Part shown: in pieces, positions 309 to 15,169 of the stretch
Layout of the letters: every line of letters begins with the position of its first letter
Numbering within the stretch: position 1 is the stretch's first letter
From: a virus
Length of the DNA stretch: 28,402 nt
Direction: 5' to 3' (one strand)
Virus record (IMG/VR): IMGVR_UViG_3300028840_000741
Coordinates: 1-28,402 of that record
Notes under the pieces: model-generated
What the model was told of the DNA's origin: nothing
Database searches by the model: none
Seen by the model: only the letters and a program-made list of their open reading frames with translations
Translations under genes and position numbers: made by a program

Positions 309-806
309 CTAATCCCGGTACACTATTGCAGTGTCCGGGTAACCTTTGTCTGTCCTGTAAGTAACTGGGTAACAGCTGGTAAGCCCTGAAAAGCCTTTAC
401 CGTTACCGCTAAGCTTTGCTGCAGCTGGGGCGTCTTCGTCCAGCTCCTGAAAGCCCTTTTTACGCATTGTTTCAGCCTTTGCGGGGAAAGCTGTAATAAA
501 TTTTCCGGTAAACTGGTCCCGGTCATCACAGAAAGCCCAGCAAAGCCCGTATTTGCCTTTTATGACCTTTGCCCGGACCCGGACGCCTTCAAGGTCATAC
601 AGACCCTTAAAGCTGCTGAGGCCGTTATTTTCGGCTATGTCAAGCTTTAGCTCTAGCAAACGCCTGTGCAAGCCGTCCCCTACGCGGCTAGCTGCACAGT
701 CCATGCTCTCCATGTCTGCGCGCTGGGCCTGTCTCTTGTCCGTGGCCGCTATTTGGGCGCGTATGCTTTCTGCCTCTGCCGTCCAGTCCGTTACTGTTTC
801 TGTCAT
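309..806 (-). CDS. Unknown small phage protein (165 aa)
   Basis: I chose the start MTETVTDW at 806. The ATG 15 bases upstream (821) would add MEGKT, but its bases form the SD leader GGAGGGCAAGACC, and the same arrangement recurs at the gene starting at 1512. The N-terminal half (about residues 5-60) is charged and probably helical. The C-terminal half, with motifs such as GKYGLCWAFCDDRDQFTGK and GLTSCYPVTYRTDKGYPDTA, looks beta-rich and is probably a small soluble domain. No catalytic motif, signal peptide or membrane helix is evident, and I do not recognise the family. The upstream gene stops only 17 bases before this start, so the two are probably co-translated. Confidence 0.7.
   Translation of the reverse strand: MTETVTDWTAEAESIRAQIAATDKRQAQRADMESMDCAASRVGDGLHRRLLELKLDIAENNGLSSFKGLYDLEGVRVRAKVIKGKYGLCWAFCDDRDQFTGKFITAFPAKAETMRKKGFQELDEDAPAAAKLSGNGKGFSGLTSCYPVTYRTDKGYPDTAIVYRD
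314..339 (-). terminator. Hairpin at gene end with distant T-run, weak terminator candidate
   Basis: CCCGG and ACACT arms (314-318, 320-324) pair with AGTGT and CCGGG (330-334, 335-339) around a 5-base loop, with one bulged base. It overlaps the last codons and the stop region of the preceding gene. On the minus strand a seven-T run follows, but only about 10 bases after the stem, so this is not a classical intrinsic terminator. It may attenuate transcription or only shield the SD site of the next gene. Confidence 0.3.
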
Positions 807-4659: not shown

Positions 4660-4746
4660 TTAATACCAACCGTCCGTACCTTCCCAGTGAATTATTAAAG
4701 CATTACCCGGGGCAAGTGTATAGCTTGCATTAACGCCAAGCAGTTT
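4660..4746 (-). other. Out-of-frame C-terminal coding of the fibre (frameshift remnant)
   Basis: In the frame shifted by one base relative to the fibre gene, the minus strand from about 4746 encodes KLLGVNASYTLAPGNALIIH followed by WEGTDGWY and a TAA at 4662-4660. That is a typical end for a phage fibre domain that begins GKEYRIVNTGQT, which sits in the annotated frame. One extra base at the AAA run (4744-4746) would join them. The restored stop is 12 bases from the next ATG, matching the tight gaps elsewhere. Confidence 0.8.
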
Positions 4747-7700
4747 GTCTGACCAGTGTTTACTATTCTATACTCTTTACCGCTAGTGCCTCCGGCCGGC
4801 AGTGTCGCTACAAGTGTAGCGCTGGTAGAGTTAAAAAATAATACGTGGTCCAGCTCAGTTATAGTGTAATTTGCAGTCTTTCTGGCAAGCGCCCTATATA
4901 CCCCGTTAGTCTGTATAAGGTTGCTAGCGTCTATATCATAAGTAAATAATACTTTATCCCCAAGGTGCCCAATATCAGAAGTTAAAGCAAAGGCAAGGTT
5001 ACCAGCGTGGTAATGGTTAAGCTCTACAAGTGGGCCGGTAGTCTCTTTAACTATTTTGTAATCACCCGTTACACCGTCAAAGTATAACGGTTTTTCATCG
5101 CCTAAGTAAACGCCGTCAGTAACATAAAGCAAGTTATTAAAAGTAAGGTATGTACCGGAAACTATAAAAGTTAAATTATCTATTTCATAACTTACGGCCC
5201 CTACTACCATTTCGTTAGCCTGTGTAGTAGTAGCTGCCCTACCAAGTGCTATAGCTTCGCTGTGGCTTGCCGTTGCACTCCTACCCAGTGCCGTTGCGCT
5301 TGTACCGGCTGAGGCGTCAGCCCCAAGAGCCGTAGCAGAAAAGCTGCTCGTACTTGCACTATATCCGATTGCGGTACTTGCATTTCCTCCGGTATTTGCA
5401 CTACGTCCAACTACTACCACTTGCGCGTTAGTATTTGTTATTGAAAAGCCAATTATAACAGAGTCAAAGCTAGAGCAACTTGTATTATATCCAATAATAA
5501 CGTTTTGCCCAGTTACCCCGCCTGAGCTTGCATTATAGCCCATTACTACAGAGTCAGCCCCTGAAGCGCTGGCACCATTTCCAAGTACAGTACTGTAGTC
5601 ACCTGTGGCAGTAGCACTGGCACCGAAAGCCTCAGCGCTTGTGCCGGTCCCGGCTGGACGGGCCGAAACATTGCCGATAAAATCAACTGAATTATTAAAG
5701 GTAAGCACTGTGCCGGAAACTATAAAAGCTAAAGTGTCTATTTCATACGTAGCCGCTCCTACTACCATTTCATTAGCTTGTGTAGTTGCTGCAGCTCTAC
5801 CCAGTGCTATTGATTCACTAGAAGTAGCGTCTGCGTCCCGGCCAATAGCTATAGAATCAGAGCCGCCAGTTGAACCATAGCCAATAGAAACACCGCTAGC
5901 ACTGTTTGCAGTGTGGCCTATTGACGTGCCAGACGTTCCTACTACTGCTTGGTAACCTACGGCTACGCCTGTTTGGTTTACTGAAGCTTGGTAACCTATT
6001 GCCACTGAGTTATTAAAACTAATTGCAGCGTCAGCGCCAATTAAAACAGAGCTTCCAGCTGTACTTGAAATACTGTAACCAACTATTACCGTGTTTGTCC
6101 CGGTCCCGTCTGATTCTGCCCCTACCACTACTGTATTGTCTTCCCCGGAAACTGCTTGGTACCCTATTGCTATACCATTTGTGGCCGTATTAACTTCTGA
6201 TTCTCTGCCCACTGCCACGCCGTATGCGTTATTTATAACCGTAGAAAGGTAACCTATAGCAACTGCGCTAGAGGCTCCGCTTGCTATGCTTGTATCTCTT
6301 CCGATTATTACAGAATACAAGGCACCGCTTGCCCCGTCACCTATTGCCACTGCAGAGCCGCCGGACGTTACGCCGTTTGCGCCTATTGCAATGCCGCGCC
6401 CTGAAGCTGTAGCGCCGTCCCCTATTGCTACGCCGTAGTCACCCGTACCAGAGGCCGCAGTACCTATTATTACGCAGTCAACAAAACCCACATTAGTAGA
6501 GTTTAAACCTATAACAACTGAGGCCCCAGCTGAAACAGCGCTACGGCCTATAGCAACACCCCCGGCCCCTGAAACTATTGATCCGTTACCTATTGCTATT
6601 ACGTTATCATTTTGGGCGTTAATTCCGCCGCCTATTGCTACAGTCCTATTGCCGGTACCGCTGGAAGAGGCACCAATAATAACACCTTGACGCCGTGTAT
6701 ATGTATGGCCCTCACCTATTAAAATACTGTTAATGTCTGAAGTGGTCATATTAGGGCCTATAATAATTGTACCAGTAGCCCCGGCCACTGAGTCAGTACC
6801 TATAACAATTGATTCTAAAAAGCCAGCCGTGGCACCATGGCCAAGCGCTATAGCGTCATCACCCACAGCGGACGCCCCGGACCCGAAAGCCTCAGAATCC
6901 GTGCCAGCTGTTTCCTGTCCAGCTGATATAGTCCCGTCTAAAACGCTGGGCGCGTCTGTCGCGCCTCTTATAAAATAGTCCCAGCCGTCCGCTATGTCAC
7001 CGTCTGCATAATAATGCGTGCAAGTAGTAGTAGAGCCGGCAAATGTACCGCCTGAGGCAAAGCCGTAATACTGGTAAGTAAATACACCGCTTGCGCCCTG
7101 CTGGGCATAAGTACGCACTCCGTATGAGTGTGAGCTTGAAGCGTTTACCACGCCGTTAGAATAATTGCGCACATATATACCAACTAAGCCAGTGTCAAGC
7201 GTGCCGTTATAAACTGCGTTTTGTACTTCAATGCCAGTAAGGTTTTGTATTGTCTCTGCTCCGTTATTAAGCTGGGTTGTAATATATGCACCCCAAAGGC
7301 CGCTAGACGTGTCACCGCTTGTGCCATTGTGGACTATTGAGCTATAAATATTATACTTGTCTATGCCGGCCGTGATTATGTCCCCGGCTTCGCTTACGTC
7401 TAGTATTGCGTCTGCAGCCCCGGTATTATTTCCCACGTCAAGGCTTGCAAAAGTTGCGCCGCCGTCAAAGGTAACCGGACCGCCAAAACGTGAGGGCGCC
7501 GTACCGTTTTGATATATACAATAGTCAATATTTGAAAGCTCATTAAAGTACTGCATATATGCCGTACCTGAGGAAGTGCCGTCTATATCCATTTCCACGT
7601 AATGGCCGGCTATGTCCCCGCTCATTACTGCAGACGGTCCTAAGTTTCTTACAAAAGTTTTCTGCCCGATCATCCAGCCAGTAACGCCCAGCCCTGTACT

Positions 7701-9767
7701 AAAATTTTGCACTACTATGTCGTTACCTACCAGCTCAGTAGTTGTACCAGTGCTGGAAAGTGAAGCGGAAGAGCTGGCCCCTATTATTTCGCCCATTACT
7801 CCGCCTGTCTGGTTTAGACTTGCGCTTACCTGTGAGCCAATTAAAAAGTCTGACGCGTCAGTAGCGCCGGCAGATTTACTAAGACTAACTGCAAAGCCTT
7901 TATAAGTGTCTGCAGTGTCAATACTAGAGGCTACAATTTGAAAACTTGTACCTACACTTGGCGTACTACCTATTGCACTGTTTTCATAAATACCAAAGCC
8001 GGCATTTTCTACCAGTATGTAACCGTTAGTTGTAACAAATTCCAGCCAATCCAACTCATGCCCAAGACTACCAATTTTTATTTGGTGATCTTTTGAAGTT
8101 GTGGCACCATGGCCCAACGCTATACAGTCCTCATGGCCGGCCGTTACTCCGTGCCCTATTGCAATGCTGTAACTATCCGTAATACTTGCGCCGTAACCTA
8201 TGGCCACTGTTTCAGTATAGCAGCTGGCCCCGCTGCCTATTACTACTGATTCGGCCAAATTGCCTACCACGTTATACCCTATTGCTACGGTATCATTACC
8301 CCCGGCCCCGGTGTTTGCGTCTGTGCCCATAGCTATAGACCTGTCCCCGGCAGCGTCAGCGCTATTACCTATTGCCGTTGCGTCATCTCCTAAGGCAGAG
8401 CCGCCGGCGCCGAAAGCTTCAGAGGCAATACCAGCCAAAGCTTGGCCGGCTGAAATCGTACCAGCAAAGTAGCTGTCTATATTATCTGCAATGTATACCC
8501 CCCAGTCCCAGCTTGCCCCGGTTACATAAACTGCGTAGCTGTCACCTGAGACGCCGGCAAAGTCAAGCGCATTATAATAGGCGCCGTATACATTAGTAAC
8601 AGTAGTGCCCACTGCTGCGCTAAGCTGGAAGTAGTCACCGTACAAGTTAGTTATATTGCAGCCAGAGTACATTATTTGTGAGTGGTAGTCACCGTATACG
8701 CTGCCGCTTACTTCCCCGTAAATTGACTGCGTAATATAGTCACCGTATACGTTATACCAGAAAGCGTTAACGCCGTCCCGCATTTCCGTAAAAGTTCCTC
8801 TTACTACTGCGCCGCTGCCACCTACGCCTTGCCCTTCAAAATAAACATATTGCTTGGTACCTTCTACGGGGTTGTTACTTACTTCCCCAGTGTCAGCAAC
8901 GAACAAATAATTATAAGTACCTACAATGCGTGAGCCAAGAGTAGCGCCGGCAAATACGCGGCAAAAGTTTGCGGTACCTGTTAACCAGCCGTCTATACTT
9001 TCGTTTATGCGTAATTCATTCCATACGCCCGTAATCTGTCCCCACGTATTACCGGGGTCATCATAATCAAAGTAGGACCGGTGCCCTATAAAGTGATCAG
9101 TACCAGTAGAGCTGCCGGCAGTTTTAACCGCCTGTATGTCATAACCAGTAAGCGGCCCGTCTGAGTCCCAAGTATTATTAAGCAGCTGTATTGCCGGTGT
9201 AAGTCCCCCCACTGGTATAGGCAGTACCCAAGACTGCGTTAATGTATGCCCTGAAGTTGCAAGCTCTAAATTACTAAGTAACGCGTGGTCACTCCCGGCA
9301 CCGCCGCCCCCGGATCCTCCGCCCTCCGCTATGTGGAAAGTTTCTGTATCTTGGTAAAATCGCCCAAGTGTAATTTTAATTCCGCTTGGCGGCTCCGTGG
9401 TAGTCCACGCCCCGGGCGTAGTCTGAGAAAGGTAATAAATTTTAGACGGGTCACCGGCCCAGCCAGTCTTTACCCAGTTCCCGGCTTTTAAAAATCTACC
9501 CTCTACAGCTTCGGCCGTGTCCTCAGTCAGTATAAAAACCAAAGCACAATTAGCTATAGTGTCTGCCTGTGCTTTCTTTGCTTTACCCGTTGCGTCAAAG
9601 GTATACCATTCCCCCTCAATACCGCCGTTACCAATTGCTACCTCTGCAGTAACCCAGCCCCCGGCGTGGTCCGCTGTCCTGAAGTTATCATTATAATCCT
9701 CTTGCGGATTATTCCCGGTACCTTCGGGGAGTTCGTATTGTGCTTGTGCTGTCTGATTGTCAGCCAT
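4695..9767 (-). CDS. Giant tail fibre with YadA-head-like repeats; 3' end frameshifted (1690 aa)
   Basis: About residues 1-160 are a probable tail-attachment region ending in a Gly-rich linker (GGGSGGGG). About 165-440 carry repeats with a 'VYGDY' core. Long arrays of YadA/haemagglutinin-head-like repeats (SVAIG/ALGxGA/VVIG type) follow in three blocks, about 451-570, 958-1330 and 1378-1500, each opened by SEAFG or AEAFG. Such repeats build left-handed beta-rolls in trimeric adhesins, so a trimeric host-binding fibre is likely. The C-terminal domain (about 1590 on) contains GKEYRIVNTGQT, after which the frame breaks down and ends with nonsense residues. The SD is AAAGGG and the start at 9767 abuts the tip gene. 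All five GATC sites found in the window fall in this gene. Confidence 0.88.
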   Translation of the reverse strand: MADNQTAQAQYELPEGTGNNPQEDYNDNFRTADHAGGWVTAEVAIGNGGIEGEWYTFDATGKAKKAQADTIANCALVFILTEDTAEAVEGRFLKAGNWVKTGWAGDPSKIYYLSQTTPGAWTTTEPPSGIKITLGRFYQDTETFHIAEGGGSGGGGAGSDHALLSNLELATSGHTLTQSWVLPIPVGGLTPAIQLLNNTWDSDGPLTGYDIQAVKTAGSSTGTDHFIGHRSYFDYDDPGNTWGQITGVWNELRINESIDGWLTGTANFCRVFAGATLGSRIVGTYNYLFVADTGEVSNNPVEGTKQYVYFEGQGVGGSGAVVRGTFTEMRDGVNAFWYNVYGDYITQSIYGEVSGSVYGDYHSQIMYSGCNITNLYGDYFQLSAAVGTTVTNVYGAYYNALDFAGVSGDSYAVYVTGASWDWGVYIADNIDSYFAGTISAGQALAGIASEAFGAGGSALGDDATAIGNSADAAGDRSIAMGTDANTGAGGNDTVAIGYNVVGNLAESVVIGSGASCYTETVAIGYGASITDSYSIAIGHGVTAGHEDCIALGHGATTSKDHQIKIGSLGHELDWLEFVTTNGYILVENAGFGIYENSAIGSTPSVGTSFQIVASSIDTADTYKGFAVSLSKSAGATDASDFLIGSQVSASLNQTGGVMGEIIGASSSASLSSTGTTTELVGNDIVVQNFSTGLGVTGWMIGQKTFVRNLGPSAVMSGDIAGHYVEMDIDGTSSGTAYMQYFNELSNIDYCIYQNGTAPSRFGGPVTFDGGATFASLDVGNNTGAADAILDVSEAGDIITAGIDKYNIYSSIVHNGTSGDTSSGLWGAYITTQLNNGAETIQNLTGIEVQNAVYNGTLDTGLVGIYVRNYSNGVVNASSSHSYGVRTYAQQGASGVFTYQYYGFASGGTFAGSTTTCTHYYADGDIADGWDYFIRGATDAPSVLDGTISAGQETAGTDSEAFGSGASAVGDDAIALGHGATAGFLESIVIGTDSVAGATGTIIIGPNMTTSDINSILIGEGHTYTRRQGVIIGASSSGTGNRTVAIGGGINAQNDNVIAIGNGSIVSGAGGVAIGRSAVSAGASVVIGLNSTNVGFVDCVIIGTAASGTGDYGVAIGDGATASGRGIAIGANGVTSGGSAVAIGDGASGALYSVIIGRDTSIASGASSAVAIGYLSTVINNAYGVAVGRESEVNTATNGIAIGYQAVSGEDNTVVVGAESDGTGTNTVIVGYSISSTAGSSVLIGADAAISFNNSVAIGYQASVNQTGVAVGYQAVVGTSGTSIGHTANSASGVSIGYGSTGGSDSIAIGRDADATSSESIALGRAAATTQANEMVVGAATYEIDTLAFIVSGTVLTFNNSVDFIGNVSARPAGTGTSAEAFGASATATGDYSTVLGNGASASGADSVVMGYNASSGGVTGQNVIIGYNTSCSSFDSVIIGFSITNTNAQVVVVGRSANTGGNASTAIGYSASTSSFSATALGADASAGTSATALGRSATASHSEAIALGRAATTTQANEMVVGAVSYEIDNLTFIVSGTYLTFNNLLYVTDGVYLGDEKPLYFDGVTGDYKIVKETTGPLVELNHYHAGNLAFALTSDIGHLGDKVLFTYDIDASNLIQTNGVYRALARKTANYTITELDHVLFFNSTSATLVATLPAGGTSGKEYRIVNTGQTNCLALMQAIHLPRVML
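5134..5254. repeat. Intragenic direct repeat, copy A
   Basis: This aligns without gaps to 5692-5812, with about 98 of 121 bases identical by eye. It encodes the module with NEMVVGA, YEID and FIVSGTxLTFNN that closes a YadA-like repeat block. A more diverged relative (HQIKIGSLGHELDWLEFVTT) occurs near residue 565, so the fibre seems to have grown by internal duplication. Confidence 0.75.
5692..5812. repeat. Intragenic direct repeat, copy B
   Basis: Partner of 5134-5254, offset by 558 bases in the same frame. In the protein it gives NEMVVGAATYEIDTLAFIVS, against NEMVVGAVSYEIDNLTFIVS in copy A. In-frame divergence with conserved protein suggests an old duplication kept by selection. Confidence 0.75.
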
Positions 9768-9768
9768 T

Positions 9769-12700
9769 TTATACCCTTTCTATTTCTTGTTTCATAATGT
9801 CGAAACCTTCACGCCCCGGACCGCGCCCAGTGACTACAGGCCGCACGCCTAGCCAGTAATGGTTAGAGGCTATGCCGCCAAAGTCAATAGCATTTTGCGC
9901 GTCTGTATACGTGTAATTATCAGTAAGGCCAATACTTAAATGCTCAGCAATTACAGTAGTGCCGTCAGTGTCATATACTATTATGTCGTAATCGTCAACG
10001 TCCCCAGCTTGCCAGCCTTGCCACTCCCAAGCAGCAAGTGCGGCCGCTCCCATACCTGAGTTACGGTTAGTGTATTCCCATATTACCTTTACGTCCGTAT
10101 CTTCGGTTTTGGTCCGCCGGCCAAGCGCGCCCCGGGTGCTGTCTTCTATCTGCAGCCGGTCAGTATGCGTAGCTTTCCGGGTCCAGTTTCTAAATGTATA
10201 CTCATACGTTTGCACCTCTGCCAAATCCTCCGGGCCGTCCCCGCGTAAATTGAAAGGCGCAAATTTTAAATATACTATTTTGCCCATCCACTCCGCGGGT
10301 ATCTCAATTTTATTATAACTTATACCCACGTGTAATACTACAGTGTTTGCAGCCACGGTATGCGGCTTATAAAAAGTGTAGTCTTTTTGGCGTACCATAT
10401 TACGTAACTGTATGTCAGACCCGGACGCCACGGCCTCACGGTAAGTACAAAATTCTAAATTTTCAAGCGTGCCCTCAAAACCTGTAGGCACTTCCCCTAC
10501 TAGGCAGTAACTTAAATTATTGCGCTGGTTTGTCCGGGTGTAACTTACTAGCGTACTTTCCGGGTATGCGTCCGTATTAACTTTAAAACGCCGCTCATAC
10601 TTTCCCACGTCCTCTACCAAGTCTGCCACGTTTGCAAACTGAGTTAAGCGCGTTACATAAAAGAAATTGTCCGGGGCGTCAAGGCTGGCCCATACGTCAC
10701 AGTACGTAGTATTTTCCCCGGTCCGTGCTGCAGTAAGTCCCAAGTGGGGCACGTCATTATTATAGCGTGCGTCCTCTTCCCATACTACAGGTATAACGTC
10801 CTCTGGCTGGCCTATATTTGTTTCTTCGCTTATACTGGGGTCGTAGTCTATATTTTCGTAGCTTACTATATAGTCTTCGTCAATAATCCAGCTAACAGTT
10901 ACCCCGGCCCCTACGTCTGCCGGCGGGTCATCAATACTAAACACTCTGCAGCGCTGGTTATTTATATTGTCATTTGGAAAATTAAGCAAGTAACTTTCGC
11001 CGTGTCTTATTTTCAGCCAGCGGCCGTTAAGCACGGTAGTATGTATTGCATTTTGAAAGCGTCCAATTTTCCAGCCCTTCCAAGCCATTTTAGAAATTAC
11101 TGCGGGGTTAGAAAACATATTGTAATTAAGATTTTCTTCTATTACTTCCCCGTCCAAGTCTTGGCTTAACATGTCATCTAACTGAAAAGTTGCGTCACGC
11201 TTATAACCATTAAGTCTGTTTTCATAAATAACGTTAAGACGGTTTGGGCAAAGTCCTATATCCTTCATGCTGGTACTTATTATTGCAAGGTCCGCCGTAC
11301 CCTGTCCGGTAATGCTTAATACGTCATCTTCCGTAATAGGGTCAATTTGCGCTAGCGGGTCATTGACATTAGGCATAAAAAAACCAAATTTCCCTTGGTC
11401 CGTCTGGTATGGGTGTGCTTGTAAGTGTCCCAGTATATCACGTATAACAGCCCCCACGTTACGCTTACGTAATACACTAAATGACATGCCAATACGGTTA
11501 TCAAAGCAAGTACCGGCAAGTGCCGTAAGCTGTGTAGCGTCTACTATATCAGTGTCAAGGCCCCGGGTGTTTTTAAAAAGGTCATAAATAATATGCCCCG
11601 GGTTAGCGTCAATTATAAGCTCCATTGTATGGTAATTATTAAGCGTGTCATAACCTGAATAATAAAGCGTACCGTTTGGCCCTTCGTAAGCGCTTCCAGC
11701 ATATCCGGGCATGCCGGCAAGCGGGGACCCTGTAGCACTGTCCCACCATTCATTATTAACCTGTATTGGCGCTGCAGTATTTGTAATAAACTGCTGCGTT
11801 TCCCGGTCATAAGTTAAGTACCCTATTTTATCATAATCCGGGTCAGGCGGTCCGGGGCTAAAGCCCATGTCTACGCCAAGCACGCACTGGCTGCCATATA
11901 CTGCCACTATTGCGTTAGGTGTTGACATAAGTAACGGCCAAGTAGTAGAGTCCAGCACGTTACCTGTAAAGTCTATCATGTAAAGCGTACCAGCTGAGCC
12001 TTGCCAAAATATAAAGTCTTCGTTTGCCGCTATGTCGTTTGCATTATCTATGCCGCCCATATCATACGTGGCAAGCAGAGTAGTACCGGCATAATTAACT
12101 TTATGCAAATTATTAAAAGGGCTAAACTGGTTATCCTCAGCAATAAAAATATAATCATTAGTTACGGCTACCTCTATACCCTCAAAATTTGAGGACCCCG
12201 CCGGCGTATAAATTACGGTCTTGGTATAGCTACCGCGCTGTAATTCTGTCTGCTCATTATTCACATTACTTACAGTTTTTGAAAACTTAAATAATTGTAT
12301 TTCGCCGTCTATGTCATTACCGTTAATTATGTTAATATAGGTTTTGCTTTTCGTGTAGGTTAAGCACGCGTCCCACTGGAAAGCAAAATTAAGCCCAAGC
12401 GGGGTTAAGTCTACAGTCTTTTGCAAATCCCACTTAGAATTATATACTTTCATTTCCGTACTGGTAAGCGTTATAATTTGGTCGTACTTGTCTCTTAATA
12501 CAACGTCCCCGCCCTCTGTCTGCTCTGTTACTTTGTTAAGAACATACGGCGCCACGTTTGTTATAGCTGCGTCCCATGGCAAGTTATGGGCCTCACTTGA
12601 TATAGTTGGCATGCTTGCGTTATCTTCGCCAAGGTACCAATTATTAAAGTAAGTATACGCAATGCGTTTTAATGGTACTACGTCCTCTGCTCTTATATCC

Positions 12701-13161
12701 CAGTCCGGGTTAACTGTCTGCTCAGGGGTCCCCCGGTAAACAGTTAAAGCGCTGTCTGCTTCGGGTACTAAAATATCGTCATTTTTCCACATACGCGTTA
12801 CGTCAAGTATGCCCCGGCCAAGGCCAAGCGCTGCCCACGTCCAGTACTTATAACCGGTTACGGTTTTCTGTCCGCCCTTACCGCCTTGCTCTACTTTCTT
12901 TTTCCGCAGCGGTCCTTTGTATATCCAGTTACCTTTAATTTTATTAACGCCGTAATGCAAGCCCACTGCTGCGCCCTCTTCGGACGTGTTCAGGTTAAGA
13001 GCTGTATACGGGTCCGGGGCCTCCGGTGCCTCCGGGGGAAATAGTACGGACCCTAGAACGCCGCCGGCAATGTAACCCGGGGCGCCAAGCCATGCACCTA
13101 GGCCAAACGTAAGGCCCAGCCGCGCTGCTGCACTAAAATTGTCATTAGGTCTACCGCCCAT
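9769..13161 (-). CDS. Tail tip / host-attachment protein with propeller-like insertion (1130 aa)
   Basis: The N-terminus has a Gly/Ala-rich hydrophobic hairpin (about 10-42) ending in LFPPEAPEAPDP, then VGLHYGVNKIKGNWIYKGP, typical of tip proteins of the gpJ/GTA 'megatron' class. A YRGTPEQ...YFNNWYLGED segment follows (about 144-182). About residue 520 begins NPGHIIYDLFKNTRGLD, the usual start of the next tip domain (Phage-tail_3 type). Between them lie about 300 residues of repeated beta-strand units resembling a beta-propeller. The C-terminal part (about 790-1130) looks like fibronectin-type modules. It overlaps the peptidase gene by 11 bases and has GGAG ten bases before its ATG. The role is inferred from order and N-terminal features. 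Confidence 0.82.
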   Translation of the reverse strand: MGGRPNDNFSAAARLGLTFGLGAWLGAPGYIAGGVLGSVLFPPEAPEAPDPYTALNLNTSEEGAAVGLHYGVNKIKGNWIYKGPLRKKKVEQGGKGGQKTVTGYKYWTWAALGLGRGILDVTRMWKNDDILVPEADSALTVYRGTPEQTVNPDWDIRAEDVVPLKRIAYTYFNNWYLGEDNASMPTISSEAHNLPWDAAITNVAPYVLNKVTEQTEGGDVVLRDKYDQIITLTSTEMKVYNSKWDLQKTVDLTPLGLNFAFQWDACLTYTKSKTYINIINGNDIDGEIQLFKFSKTVSNVNNEQTELQRGSYTKTVIYTPAGSSNFEGIEVAVTNDYIFIAEDNQFSPFNNLHKVNYAGTTLLATYDMGGIDNANDIAANEDFIFWQGSAGTLYMIDFTGNVLDSTTWPLLMSTPNAIVAVYGSQCVLGVDMGFSPGPPDPDYDKIGYLTYDRETQQFITNTAAPIQVNNEWWDSATGSPLAGMPGYAGSAYEGPNGTLYYSGYDTLNNYHTMELIIDANPGHIIYDLFKNTRGLDTDIVDATQLTALAGTCFDNRIGMSFSVLRKRNVGAVIRDILGHLQAHPYQTDQGKFGFFMPNVNDPLAQIDPITEDDVLSITGQGTADLAIISTSMKDIGLCPNRLNVIYENRLNGYKRDATFQLDDMLSQDLDGEVIEENLNYNMFSNPAVISKMAWKGWKIGRFQNAIHTTVLNGRWLKIRHGESYLLNFPNDNINNQRCRVFSIDDPPADVGAGVTVSWIIDEDYIVSYENIDYDPSISEETNIGQPEDVIPVVWEEDARYNNDVPHLGLTAARTGENTTYCDVWASLDAPDNFFYVTRLTQFANVADLVEDVGKYERRFKVNTDAYPESTLVSYTRTNQRNNLSYCLVGEVPTGFEGTLENLEFCTYREAVASGSDIQLRNMVRQKDYTFYKPHTVAANTVVLHVGISYNKIEIPAEWMGKIVYLKFAPFNLRGDGPEDLAEVQTYEYTFRNWTRKATHTDRLQIEDSTRGALGRRTKTEDTDVKVIWEYTNRNSGMGAAALAAWEWQGWQAGDVDDYDIIVYDTDGTTVIAEHLSIGLTDNYTYTDAQNAIDFGGIASNHYWLGVRPVVTGRGPGREGFDIMKQEIERV

Positions 13162-13714
13162 TATTTTCTAGCTCCATTACTTTTATAGTCCTGTATACTG
13201 TCTTTAGGCTATCAACTTGTAAAAGCCGCTGAAAGCGCACAGTACCCCCGCTGGGGTTATGTATAATATAATCCGGGTCACGCTGCACAATAATACCGCA
13301 ATGGCTTTCTATTCCGTTATACATGAATGTTACAAGGTCCCCGGTCTGCCTGTCATCAAATGGGACCGGCCGGCCAAATTGCATTATAAAGCGCCTGAAC
13401 GTGTCCGGGTCCACTTCTTTGCCTAGTAGCCAATCACGGTGTACCGTAGGCAGCTTTACGCCCTCAGGGACGCAGCCAGCGCGTTTAAAAGGGGTAATAG
13501 CACACATTGCACAATGGCTGCCCTTATACGGCTGTACTGAGTTCCAAATATAGGGACTATCCAGTAAGCTTTTAGCGTACTCCACTATTTCAGCCCTTAC
13601 GCGCTCAGATTCAAGCGTATTGGGGACGCCCTGAGCGTTTGAGGCTCCCGGCGCGCAATTAGCCGTATTTTCTGAAACGGCGTTAGAGGCTAAATTAGAG
13701 GCTTTCACGGTCAT
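13151..13714 (-). CDS. NlpC/P60-type tail peptidase (187 aa)
   Basis: I chose MTVKASNLASNAV at 13714, eight bases past the stop of the hub gene; the longer frame to 13849 would overlap the hub by 128 bases. The core has SPYIWNSVQPYKGSHCAMC, with the likely catalytic Cys near residue 69, ESHCGIIV with the His near 138, and YIIHNPSGG with a third His near 152. This is the Cys-His-His layout of NlpC/P60 peptidases, although the usual Asp before the Cys is His here. In gene transfer agents and related phages this gene lies between the DUF2163 hub and the tip protein and cuts peptidoglycan during DNA entry. The SD is weak, so coupling to the hub gene is likely. Confidence 0.8.
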   Translation of the reverse strand: MTVKASNLASNAVSENTANCAPGASNAQGVPNTLESERVRAEIVEYAKSLLDSPYIWNSVQPYKGSHCAMCAITPFKRAGCVPEGVKLPTVHRDWLLGKEVDPDTFRRFIMQFGRPVPFDDRQTGDLVTFMYNGIESHCGIIVQRDPDYIIHNPSGGTVRFQRLLQVDSLKTVYRTIKVMELENNGR

Positions 13715-13721
13715 AATAATA

Positions 13722-14540
13722 TTATCCCATTTGCTCAGGCCGTGGGACGTGCCTAAACCCAAGAAAATTAACAGTATTTGCCAAGTTTGCGCAGCCGCCG
13801 TATGTTTTCTGGCAGTGCGGCCATGCTGTATACTGGTCCCCGGCTGCAATAGCAGCGCTAAACGGGGGCATAAGCTTAAACTGGCCCGTTGTATACTCCT
13901 GTATTACGCTTTCTTCCCCGGCAAGGGTCCCAGTGTCCATACGGACCTTGCCCCGGTTAAAAAAGCCGTCAAGCTCTGTACGGCTTGCATCAATTAACAG
14001 CCTGTCACTGCTGCCGGCCTGAGCTGCCCCCACAACTTTTATAGTGTCCCAATTTATAGTACACTCTACAGGGTCCCCGAAAATTAAGTTACACTGCTCA
14101 GCGTATATGTCAGGGGGCACGTTCTTTTTAAGTAAAAAGAAAATGTCCCTAAATTCCATTTCAAGAGAAAGCCGGGAAAGCTCTACCTTTCCAGTAGTGC
14201 CCCCGAATTTTAACCGGTTGTTTAAGTCTTCATTGCCAAGCTCTGCTTGGTATAGACGAAAAAAGCCCCGGTCCAGTTCGCGCCGGTTCCTTATTTTGTT
14301 TAAGTCTATGAGACTTTTATTATAATCTGAAAGCCTGAGGGAAACACGCATAGTATTAACTTTTATACTTGCTTCCATTTCGTTAGAGTCCCGGGAAATA
14401 GTAGCCGGGGGGTATACGTTACCGCCGAAAGTTACAGGCTCACTAAAAGTAGTAAAGCGCTCATACACGCCGCCGGTTTTATATTCAAATTCGTACAGCT
14501 CTACAAGCTCTAAATTTTGTTTGTCCGGGTCAAAAACCAT
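13722..14540 (-). CDS. DUF2163-type baseplate hub protein (272 aa)
   Basis: The N-terminal domain has LVELYEFEYKTGGVYERFTT and NVYPPATISRDSNEMEAS, the pattern of DUF2163/BR0599-like proteins. The C-terminal part has QCNLIFGDPVEC (Cys150, Cys160) and PHCQKTYGGC (Cys243, Cys250), then NTVNFLGFRHVP. These four cysteines and the 'NFxGFxxxP' end match family members, including gene transfer agent hubs and the lambda gpL type, whose C-terminal domain binds an iron-sulfur cluster. The start codon overlaps the upstream stop (TAATG). It should form the central hub between the distal tail ring and the tip protein. Confidence 0.85.
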   Translation of the reverse strand: MVFDPDKQNLELVELYEFEYKTGGVYERFTTFSEPVTFGGNVYPPATISRDSNEMEASIKVNTMRVSLRLSDYNKSLIDLNKIRNRRELDRGFFRLYQAELGNEDLNNRLKFGGTTGKVELSRLSLEMEFRDIFFLLKKNVPPDIYAEQCNLIFGDPVECTINWDTIKVVGAAQAGSSDRLLIDASRTELDGFFNRGKVRMDTGTLAGEESVIQEYTTGQFKLMPPFSAAIAAGDQYTAWPHCQKTYGGCANLANTVNFLGFRHVPRPEQMG

Positions 14541-15169
14541 TAGTATATACTTTCCTCTTTAATGCCCACTTTTGCGTTAGTCAAATCATACGCGCTAAGT
14601 ATTGCCTCAGGCGTGCCGTTAAATCTGCAGCGCCGTAAAAAGTACCCTTCTATCTCCACGTCCCCGGTATCAGCTGCTAGTATTTCTATTTCGCCGCTGT
14701 CTACATACGTTACCGTATAGTCCGGGCCTTCGGTAAGCAGTGAGCCGCCTACCCATACTGAAAAGCCAAGCGCTTCCTCTATATTCCAGACCTTGTAAGT
14801 GCGGTCAGCTTCGCCGGCTATACTGTAAGTGCGCAACGCTTGGAAAGTCTCAGCCCCGGCCCCGGCTTTATTTCCAATTGTATTGCGGTTAATTTTATTT
14901 CCTACTAGGCCGTATTCGTCACGGAATAAAAAAGAATCTTGCAGCGTACCCACGTTAAGTATAACCTCTGCAAGCTGCAGCTTGTCTGCCTCTTTGAGCT
15001 GCCTAAGTGGTATGCTGAAAGTGGCCCAGTCATAAGCATCATGTACAAGCTCTTGCGTTACAGTTTTATTGGCGTTTTGCTGCAGAGTTATTAGGCTTGC
15101 GTATGACGCGCCGTAACCGTAAGAAAAACACCTTACTACGTCATTTAAAATAAAAGTTTTCTTGGCCAT
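14540..15169 (-). CDS. DUF2460-type distal tail protein (209 aa)
   Basis: It follows the tape measure and precedes the DUF2163 hub, the place of the distal tail protein in gene-transfer-agent-like tails. Features fitting DUF2460 are an early aromatic/Gly-rich segment (CFSYGYGASYASL), a middle LQDSFLFRDEYGLVGNKINR matching the 'FRFKD' region, and a C-terminal alternating strand region (GEIEILAADTGDVEIEGYF) followed by RRCRFNGTPE. The length matches the family (about 200 residues). The SD is AAAGGG six bases before the ATG. It should form the ring that joins the tube to the hub. Similarity is moderate; position strengthens it. Confidence 0.75.
   Translation of the reverse strand: MAKKTFILNDVVRCFSYGYGASYASLITLQQNANKTVTQELVHDAYDWATFSIPLRQLKEADKLQLAEVILNVGTLQDSFLFRDEYGLVGNKINRNTIGNKAGAGAETFQALRTYSIAGEADRTYKVWNIEEALGFSVWVGGSLLTEGPDYTVTYVDSGEIEILAADTGDVEIEGYFLRRCRFNGTPEAILSAYDLTNAKVGIKEESIY

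Follow-up and report, generated by a model that had tools for sequence, protein, structure and literature searches.

A predicted six-bladed propeller in a reused insertion slot of a siphophage tail-tip hub

We analyzed a window of 28,402 nucleotides, which is the whole stretch of IMG/VR virus record IMGVR_UViG_3300028840_000741 from position 1 to 28,402, and found that its tail-tip protein carries an inserted domain predicted to fold as a six-bladed beta-propeller. Judged from sequence comparison with related hubs, the propeller occupies a slot that is reused across the family and lies where the adhesin-like domain gives way to the hub core. Propeller folds, hubs of this family and accessory domains near HDII are all known already, and the accessible part of a 2026 paper calls the region neighboring the slot a hypervariability focus (PMC13243795). 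Among the papers listed from the literature searched, which covered few subscription journals, none described a propeller at this position of the hub or the repeated use of a single hub loop for dissimilar domains of many kinds. The slot is of more interest than the propeller that fills it here.

Results

Tail module of the window

The tip gene lies within a siphophage structural module that encodes terminase, portal, head morphogenesis, scaffold and major head proteins together with connectors, tail assembly chaperone, tape measure, hub, NlpC-like peptidase, tip and fibre-like protein (Table 1). A four-cysteine hub (PF09931/PF09356) and a peptidase precede the tip, an order similar to that of hub, peptidase and megatron in RcGTA and R4C, where we take g14 of RcGTA to be the NlpC peptidase. 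By analogy, the four cysteines of the baseplate hub protein may have an iron-sulphur role. The gene at the Dit position (14540-15169, minus strand) matched no Pfam or PHROG family. The YadA-head repeats in the fibre-like protein downstream of the tip seem unusual for a phage fibre. Compared alone with PDB sequences, the tip protein gave no match, and two scans of genome_contigs returned no relative of the tip; since no bacterial relative was found, no host was assigned.

Table 1 Features of the tip protein and neighboring tail genes, with positions in the window (the name iris/penetration follows PMC7296036, accessible part)
Feature	Position	Strand	Basis
Tail-tip / central hub ('megatron'-type) protein, 1130 aa	9769..13161	-	ORF; PHROG 1101 and 4271 'tail protein'; homology to RcGTA/R4C megatron and Chi/JBD30 hubs
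Tip residues 1-50, hydrophobic N-terminus, in the place of the RcGTA iris/penetration domain	13012..13161	-	Family profile vs 6tba from residue 22 (query) / 19 (chain); presumed first-residue equivalence
Tip residues 51-197, adhesin-like / HDII-ins-type domain	12571..13011	-	Query 22-194 vs RcGTA megatron, query 28-192 vs R4C megatron
Tip residues 198-517, inserted domain, predicted six-bladed beta-propeller	11611..12570	-	AlphaFold2, VIA-align, HMM breaks
Predicted propeller: closing strand 206-214; blades about 220-251, 263-318, 326-367, 374-407, 417-460 and 490-518			Deduced from strand order
Tip residues 518-790, hub core (HDII onwards), begins NPGHIIYDLF	10792..11610	-	Profile matches to Chi, JBD30 and lambda gpJ; inner domain limits approximate
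Tip residues 791-1130, C-terminal part, perhaps FNIII-like / fibre-binding	9772..10791	-	Deduced from place after hub core
NlpC/P60-like tail peptidase	13151..13849	-	Pfam NLPC_P60 E 0.0014 (below curated cut-off); PHROG 329 minor tail protein E 6e-13
Baseplate hub protein (RcGTA g13 / lambda gpL type)	13722..14540	-	Pfam PF09931 and PF09356; cysteines 150, 160, 243, 250
1690-aa fibre-like protein with YadA-head repeats, next gene after tip	4695..9767	-	PF05658, seven stretches

Limits of the insert

The sequence-only reading had proposed that about 300 residues separate YRGTPEQ...YLGED from NPGHIIYDLFKN, and the motifs it quoted are all present in the tip open reading frame. The estimate agrees with a hidden Markov model (HMM) built from 23 relatives that have no insert at this place and cut about 40 residues past the start of the NPAHIIYE motif. 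This model matched residues 93-130, 139-197 and 511-555 of the window tip (E 7e-9 for the whole protein), with two weak upstream pieces (E about 1) and a third piece at E 1.5e-6. The gap is bordered by model positions 138 and 144 and breaks the tip between residues 197 and 511, leaving about 313 extra residues between the last upstream-domain strand (PTISSEAHNLPW) and NPGHIIYDLF. The break falls at the junction of the adhesin-like domain with the hub core.

Limits of about 198 and about 513/517 were taken from the HMM breaks; a MAFFT alignment of nine tips put the inserts in wrong places. The upstream limit was independently confirmed by the match to the RcGTA megatron, which stops at residue 194. 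The C-terminal limit is less certain than the N-terminal one because the best stretch of PHROG 1101, starting at residue 426, and two tblastn matches, starting at 463 (Aeromonas phage vB_C4) and 474 (Acinetobacter phage MD-2021a), all begin inside the insert.

Predicted fold of the insert

Modeled alone with AlphaFold2 (residues 193-526, 8 sequences), the insert reached a mean pLDDT of 77.6 and a pTM of 0.82 with 24 strands, and a run that included the flanks (residues 50-640, 7 sequences) returned 24 strands that coincided with these to within a few residues. Confidence in the flanked run was confined to the insert (ten-residue block means of 46-90), with most of the flanks below 50 and an overall pLDDT of 51.7. 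The strands of the insert model are ordered as one N-terminal strand, five sets of four and then three (1+4x5+3), from which we infer six blades closed by the N-terminal strand.

For both models, the closest solved folds were six-bladed NHL propellers, with Z scores of 22.1-22.2. VIA-align aligned 255 residues of the insert model to 1q7f at 3.4 A (Z 22.1, spanning 12-331 of the 334 model residues), and further matches included 7b96 (Z 21.4, 2.8 A), the designed Pizza6 (Z 20.3) and phage K1F endosialidase (Z 18.5); sialidase Neu2 (2f13) reached Z 19.6 with the flanked model. According to the structure search's own guide, a best Z of 7-8 is typical for models without a clear match. The entries that we recognized by name in the VIA-align and Foldseek results are presumably propeller proteins. 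Foldseek superpositions were modest, with a TM-score on the query of at most 0.53 among the 50 matches listed; against viral models, 42 matches were obtained at E<=0.001, with a TM-score on the query of at most 0.34 among the 50 listed and no relative worth naming among them.

The propeller domain suggested by the sequence-only reading is therefore recovered by structure prediction, in two AlphaFold2 runs and with Z of about 22 to six-bladed propellers. Its accompanying statement that repeated strand units are visible in the sequence fared less well, as a profile self-comparison (7 sequences) gave only a 9-13-column off-diagonal match with 0.1% probability; with no repeats visible in the sequence, the propeller call rests on the predicted fold. 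Pfam, PHROG and solved-structure sequence searches did not identify the propeller's family, and the search for NHL repeats returned no Pfam family at E<=1 for tip or insert. In the model, the insert would fold like an NHL propeller, but we do not assign it to the NHL proteins. Matches of the family profile to MHC over residues 352-477 (E 0.02) were judged to be due to chance.

A modeling artefact is extremely improbable. The shallow alignments (7-8 sequences), the low confidence of the flanked run over the core, the blades invisible as sequence repeats and the modest Foldseek scores are what an artefact might produce, but two runs with different limits and alignments arrived at the same strands, the pTM was 0.82, and the Z score of 22, obtained over nearly the whole domain, compares with the 7-8 typical of models without a clear match.

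Conservation within the clade

All ten close homologues found carry the insert: nine match it along its whole length (L001, L002, L003, L019, L020, L021, L022, L023 and L111) and L024 stops inside it. The tip of L022 is incomplete at its C-terminus. On this sequence evidence, the insert is fixed in the clade as sampled. The earlier reading had named, as a finding that would count against it, close homologues that all carry the region as part of the core; narrowly, ten of ten do carry it, but the region diverges much faster than its flanks and is absent or replaced in the wider family. Identity between the window and L020 was 76% for residues 51-197, 42% for 198-513 and 74% for 514-790, and the corresponding values for L111 were 63, 27 and 53%, making the insert the fastest-diverging part of the tip. 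A tblastn search of named phages and plasmids found no relatives of the insert.

Between the window and L002, dN/dS was 0.095 for the insert (bootstrap interval 0.056-0.137), 0.035 for the upstream part (0.016-0.062), 0.062 for the hub core (0.030-0.094) and 0.080 for the C-terminal part (0.051-0.122), at dS of 0.85-1.32, which is near saturation. The interval for the insert overlaps those of the hub and the C-terminal part and, narrowly, that of the upstream part. Because dN/dS is low and the intervals overlap, the insert is constrained, with no sign in the sequences of positive selection for new receptors.

We regard it as improbable that the propeller is a glycan-cleaving enzyme, a sialidase- or lyase-like domain clearing surface polysaccharide. 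Such a role would fit the sialidase and endosialidase propellers among the structural matches (Neu2 and K1F endosialidase), the peripheral domain at the equivalent place in R4C, which its authors describe as mannanase-like (PMC10276861, accessible part), and the separate BNR sialidase-like gene that the insert-free Acinetobacter phage MD-2021a carries in the same tail module (L008:994-2748, between the PF09931/PF09356 hub gene and the NlpC gene). However, the Asp-box motif S-x-D-x-G-x-x-[WF] was found in strict form in none of seven tip proteins and in a loose version in none of seven insert regions, neither the tip nor five clade inserts had a Pfam sialidase or BNR match, and identity within the clade drops to 27%, with 21 invariant columns in an alignment of eight sequences, one of them truncated. 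The specific sialidase reading was dropped for want of Asp boxes and a Pfam match.

Slot occupancy in the wider hub family

Wider relatives were taken from one core scan as the best 80 of at least 152 confirmed loci, ranked by similarity to this core; three belong to the window's own clade, which leaves 77. The hub is continuous in 50 of these 77, is split at the same place in 26 and lacks the upstream part in one, which is uninformative. The extra residues at the split number 103-520 (median 211) in the 26. Dereplication at >=95% core identity reduced these 77, drawn from the best 80 of at least 152 loci, to 53 (31 without, 21 with and 1 uninformative), and at 90% core identity to 47 (25, 21 and 1, respectively). 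The earlier claim that the region was inserted, as judged against the hub family, is supported by its absence from the Chi and JBD30 hubs and from the 50 continuous relatives.

Insertions of at least 100 aa in the same 77 relatives, mapped over the 575 positions of the hub model, were concentrated at positions 135-151 (26 of 27), with one at position 44. Three loci have smaller insertions (37-54 residues) at position 47, and three have them at position 113. The one large insertion off the main slot among these relatives is a 147-aa segment at model position 44 in L079 / L013 (Achromobacter phage AchV4).

We compared 33 inserts, namely the 26 above, those of L009 and L010 (named phages) and five from the window's clade, including the window. 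They fell into 17 clusters by blastp and phmmer (E 0.01), 16 of which are represented among the 26; inserts are called dissimilar here when neither blastp nor phmmer matches them at E 0.01, which remains compatible with a shared fold. Dissimilar inserts were found in L009 and L067, whose cores are 94% identical, and L041, L064, L086, L101 and L071, at 69-78% core identity, carry inserts from four clusters. When 27 inserts covering all 17 clusters were searched against Pfam, the cut-off was reached in two, by VWA (L060) and Laminin_G_3 (L090), and the other 15 clusters, including that of the window, had no Pfam family at cut-off.

The slot of L060 holds a von Willebrand A domain (L060:5320-6033; 30 bits, cut-off 23.8) and that of L090 a laminin-G/concanavalin-like domain (L090:3989-4774; 47.5 bits, cut-off 27.6). 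Pfam matches below cut-off were set aside, including Sial-lect-inser and DUF4179 (L031), PA2794-like_C (L068) and DAO (L097). For L071 and L103, whose occupants look propeller-like, no relatives for alignment were found beyond their own or identical contigs. Ruegeria phage vB_RpoS-V18, a laboratory phage, has an occupant of about 195 aa. In the alignment, the tip of L009 (Aeromonas phage vB_C4) has a long C-terminal array of near-identical PYGLRSTVQAELLP-type repeats after the hub core.

A neutral or purely structural spacer, kept because the loop tolerates insertion, would be in keeping with the dispensability of the slot for hub function, to which the 50 of 77 relatives without an insert point (among the best 80 of at least 152). 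We nonetheless consider a spacer very improbable, given the low dN/dS of the propeller, its presence in all ten close homologues found and the fact that a single site has been filled again and again by dissimilar domains. Occupancy that ranges, among related phages, from nothing to a variety of unrelated domains suggests an exchangeable site for components in contact with the bacterial surface.

Comparison with known hubs

The family profile matched the RcGTA megatron (g15; 6tba) over query residues 22-194 and chain residues 19-204 (E 4e-11) and the R4C megatron (8gtc) over query residues 28-192 and chain residues 33-208 (E 0.008), and the window tip shares with both a homologous N-terminal part composed of iris and adhesin-like domains. 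The RcGTA central domain was not matched by the insert-free, family or post-insert profiles. In the accessible parts of the published descriptions, the RcGTA megatron is divided into iris (1-46), adhesin-like (47-229), peripheral (230-744) and central (745-984) domains, so that in RcGTA and R4C, as in the window, an accessory domain stands between the adhesin-like and central hub domains (PMC7296036). The peripheral domain there is TIM-barrel or mannanase-like, with about 515 residues in RcGTA, whereas the domain here is a predicted propeller without a Pfam match (PMC7296036, PMC10276861, PMC13420450), and the R4C megatron is further described as having an extra CBM-like domain (PMC10276861). 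On the basis of the N-terminal homology and the published limits, the propeller would take the place of the RcGTA peripheral domain.

Downstream of the slot, a post-insert profile built from the window tip and its relatives matched 8vjh over 135-431 (E 2e-63), 8rk3 over 148-423 (E 2e-48) and lambda gpJ over 271-497 (E 2e-8 to 3e-8), and a profile of insert-free relatives matched 8vjh and 8rk3 at E 2e-147 and 2e-115, respectively. We take 8vjh to be the hub of phage Chi (listed as 'Minor tail protein') and 8rk3 to be that of JBD30. The Chi minor tail protein and the JBD30 baseplate hub have the same hub core, with no more than a short loop where the window tip has its insert. In Staphylococcus aureus phage phi11, a beta-propeller presumably resides in the receptor-binding protein Gp45, which differs from the window tip in being a separate protein of a Gram-positive phage, with no hub insertion. 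As far as the accessible text goes, the phi11 propeller is involved in host recognition (PMC4901313).

Two other siphophage systems have domains added near HDII. Lambda gpJ resembles the window tip in that the HDII-insertion region of its hub has taken up an extra domain (HDII-ins2 / FNIII-A, at gpJ 72-215; PMC10721106, PMC11101478), but that domain lies inside HDII-ins1, whereas the window insert lies just before the equivalent of gpJ 271, near the HDII-ins1/HDII junction (PMC10721106). In the hubs of Alishewanella phage LSH1 and Salmonella phage Jersey, the Jersey 'HDII-ins3' is likewise an added domain, Ig-like and regarded as a possible antireceptor, and the authors also report a focus of hypervariability; unlike the window insert, it is a predicted Ig-like domain, the focus is the gpL/gpJ split and the main text mentions no propeller (PMC13243795).

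Discussion

The predicted fold, its limits and position, the recurrence of the slot and the dissimilar occupants on near-identical cores are computational results, and the function of the propeller is argued from analogy. Binding to the host surface, probably to a glycan, is the likeliest role, with docking of another tail protein as the main rival. A propeller fold says little about function, and laminin-G and VWA, the two recognizable occupants of the slot, are commonly binding domains. Support for glycan binding comes by analogy from these domains and from R4C, whose authors describe a mannanase-like peripheral domain together with an extra carbohydrate-binding domain and propose attachment to capsule (PMC10276861, accessible part).

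We propose the following arrangement. Closure of the propeller by its N-terminal strand would place the two ends side by side, which would allow the domain to fit a surface loop without disturbing the hub. On a trimeric hub of the GTA/Chi type, three propellers would project sideways from the tail tip near the bacterial surface and, as seems rather probable to us, would serve as additional adhesins fastening the phage to a glycan on that surface (capsule, exopolysaccharide or LPS); engagement of the final receptor would fall to a fibre protein. Occupants of the slot may be exchanged by recombination.

Docking would instead have the propeller bind another tail component, such as the adjacent YadA-head fibre or a tailspike, and not the host. 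Propellers often serve protein-protein contacts, and in L021 the tip frame (2284 aa) continues into a homologue of the next-gene fibre protein (E 3e-53), a natural tip-fibre fusion which suggests that tip and fibre act as a unit. Docking is the main rival because a loop of the RcGTA peripheral domain (591-599) helps to hold a detachable tailspike, forming part of the TspA attachment site according to the accessible part of a 2026 preprint, which itself calls the function of the peripheral domain unknown (PMC13420450). However, adjacency and the L021 fusion already provide a link between tip and fibre at the C-terminus, and the occupants vary widely in sequence and size among relatives, which would be unexpected for one shared docking task. 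We therefore consider docking rather unlikely and retain glycan binding as the preferred role.

More broadly, the adhesin-like/HDII junction may be a general 'payload port' of the hubs of Gram-negative siphophages and gene transfer agents, a generalization to which we give slightly less than even credence. Phages would exchange entire domains (propeller, TIM barrel, laminin-G, VWA and others) at this one loop by recombination on near-unchanged hubs, changing which surface polysaccharide is held, independently of the tail fibres.

Searches for what sets the host range of tailed phages usually look to the tail fibres. A single hub loop able to accommodate dissimilar domains, on cores as much as 94% identical, would add a second candidate locus for host recognition, one that annotation misses because its occupants rarely match known families (2 of 17 groups at the Pfam cut-off). 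The slot gives a common reading for the peripheral domain of RcGTA and the short loop in Chi and JBD30, and it supplies defined limits for deletion in laboratory phages.
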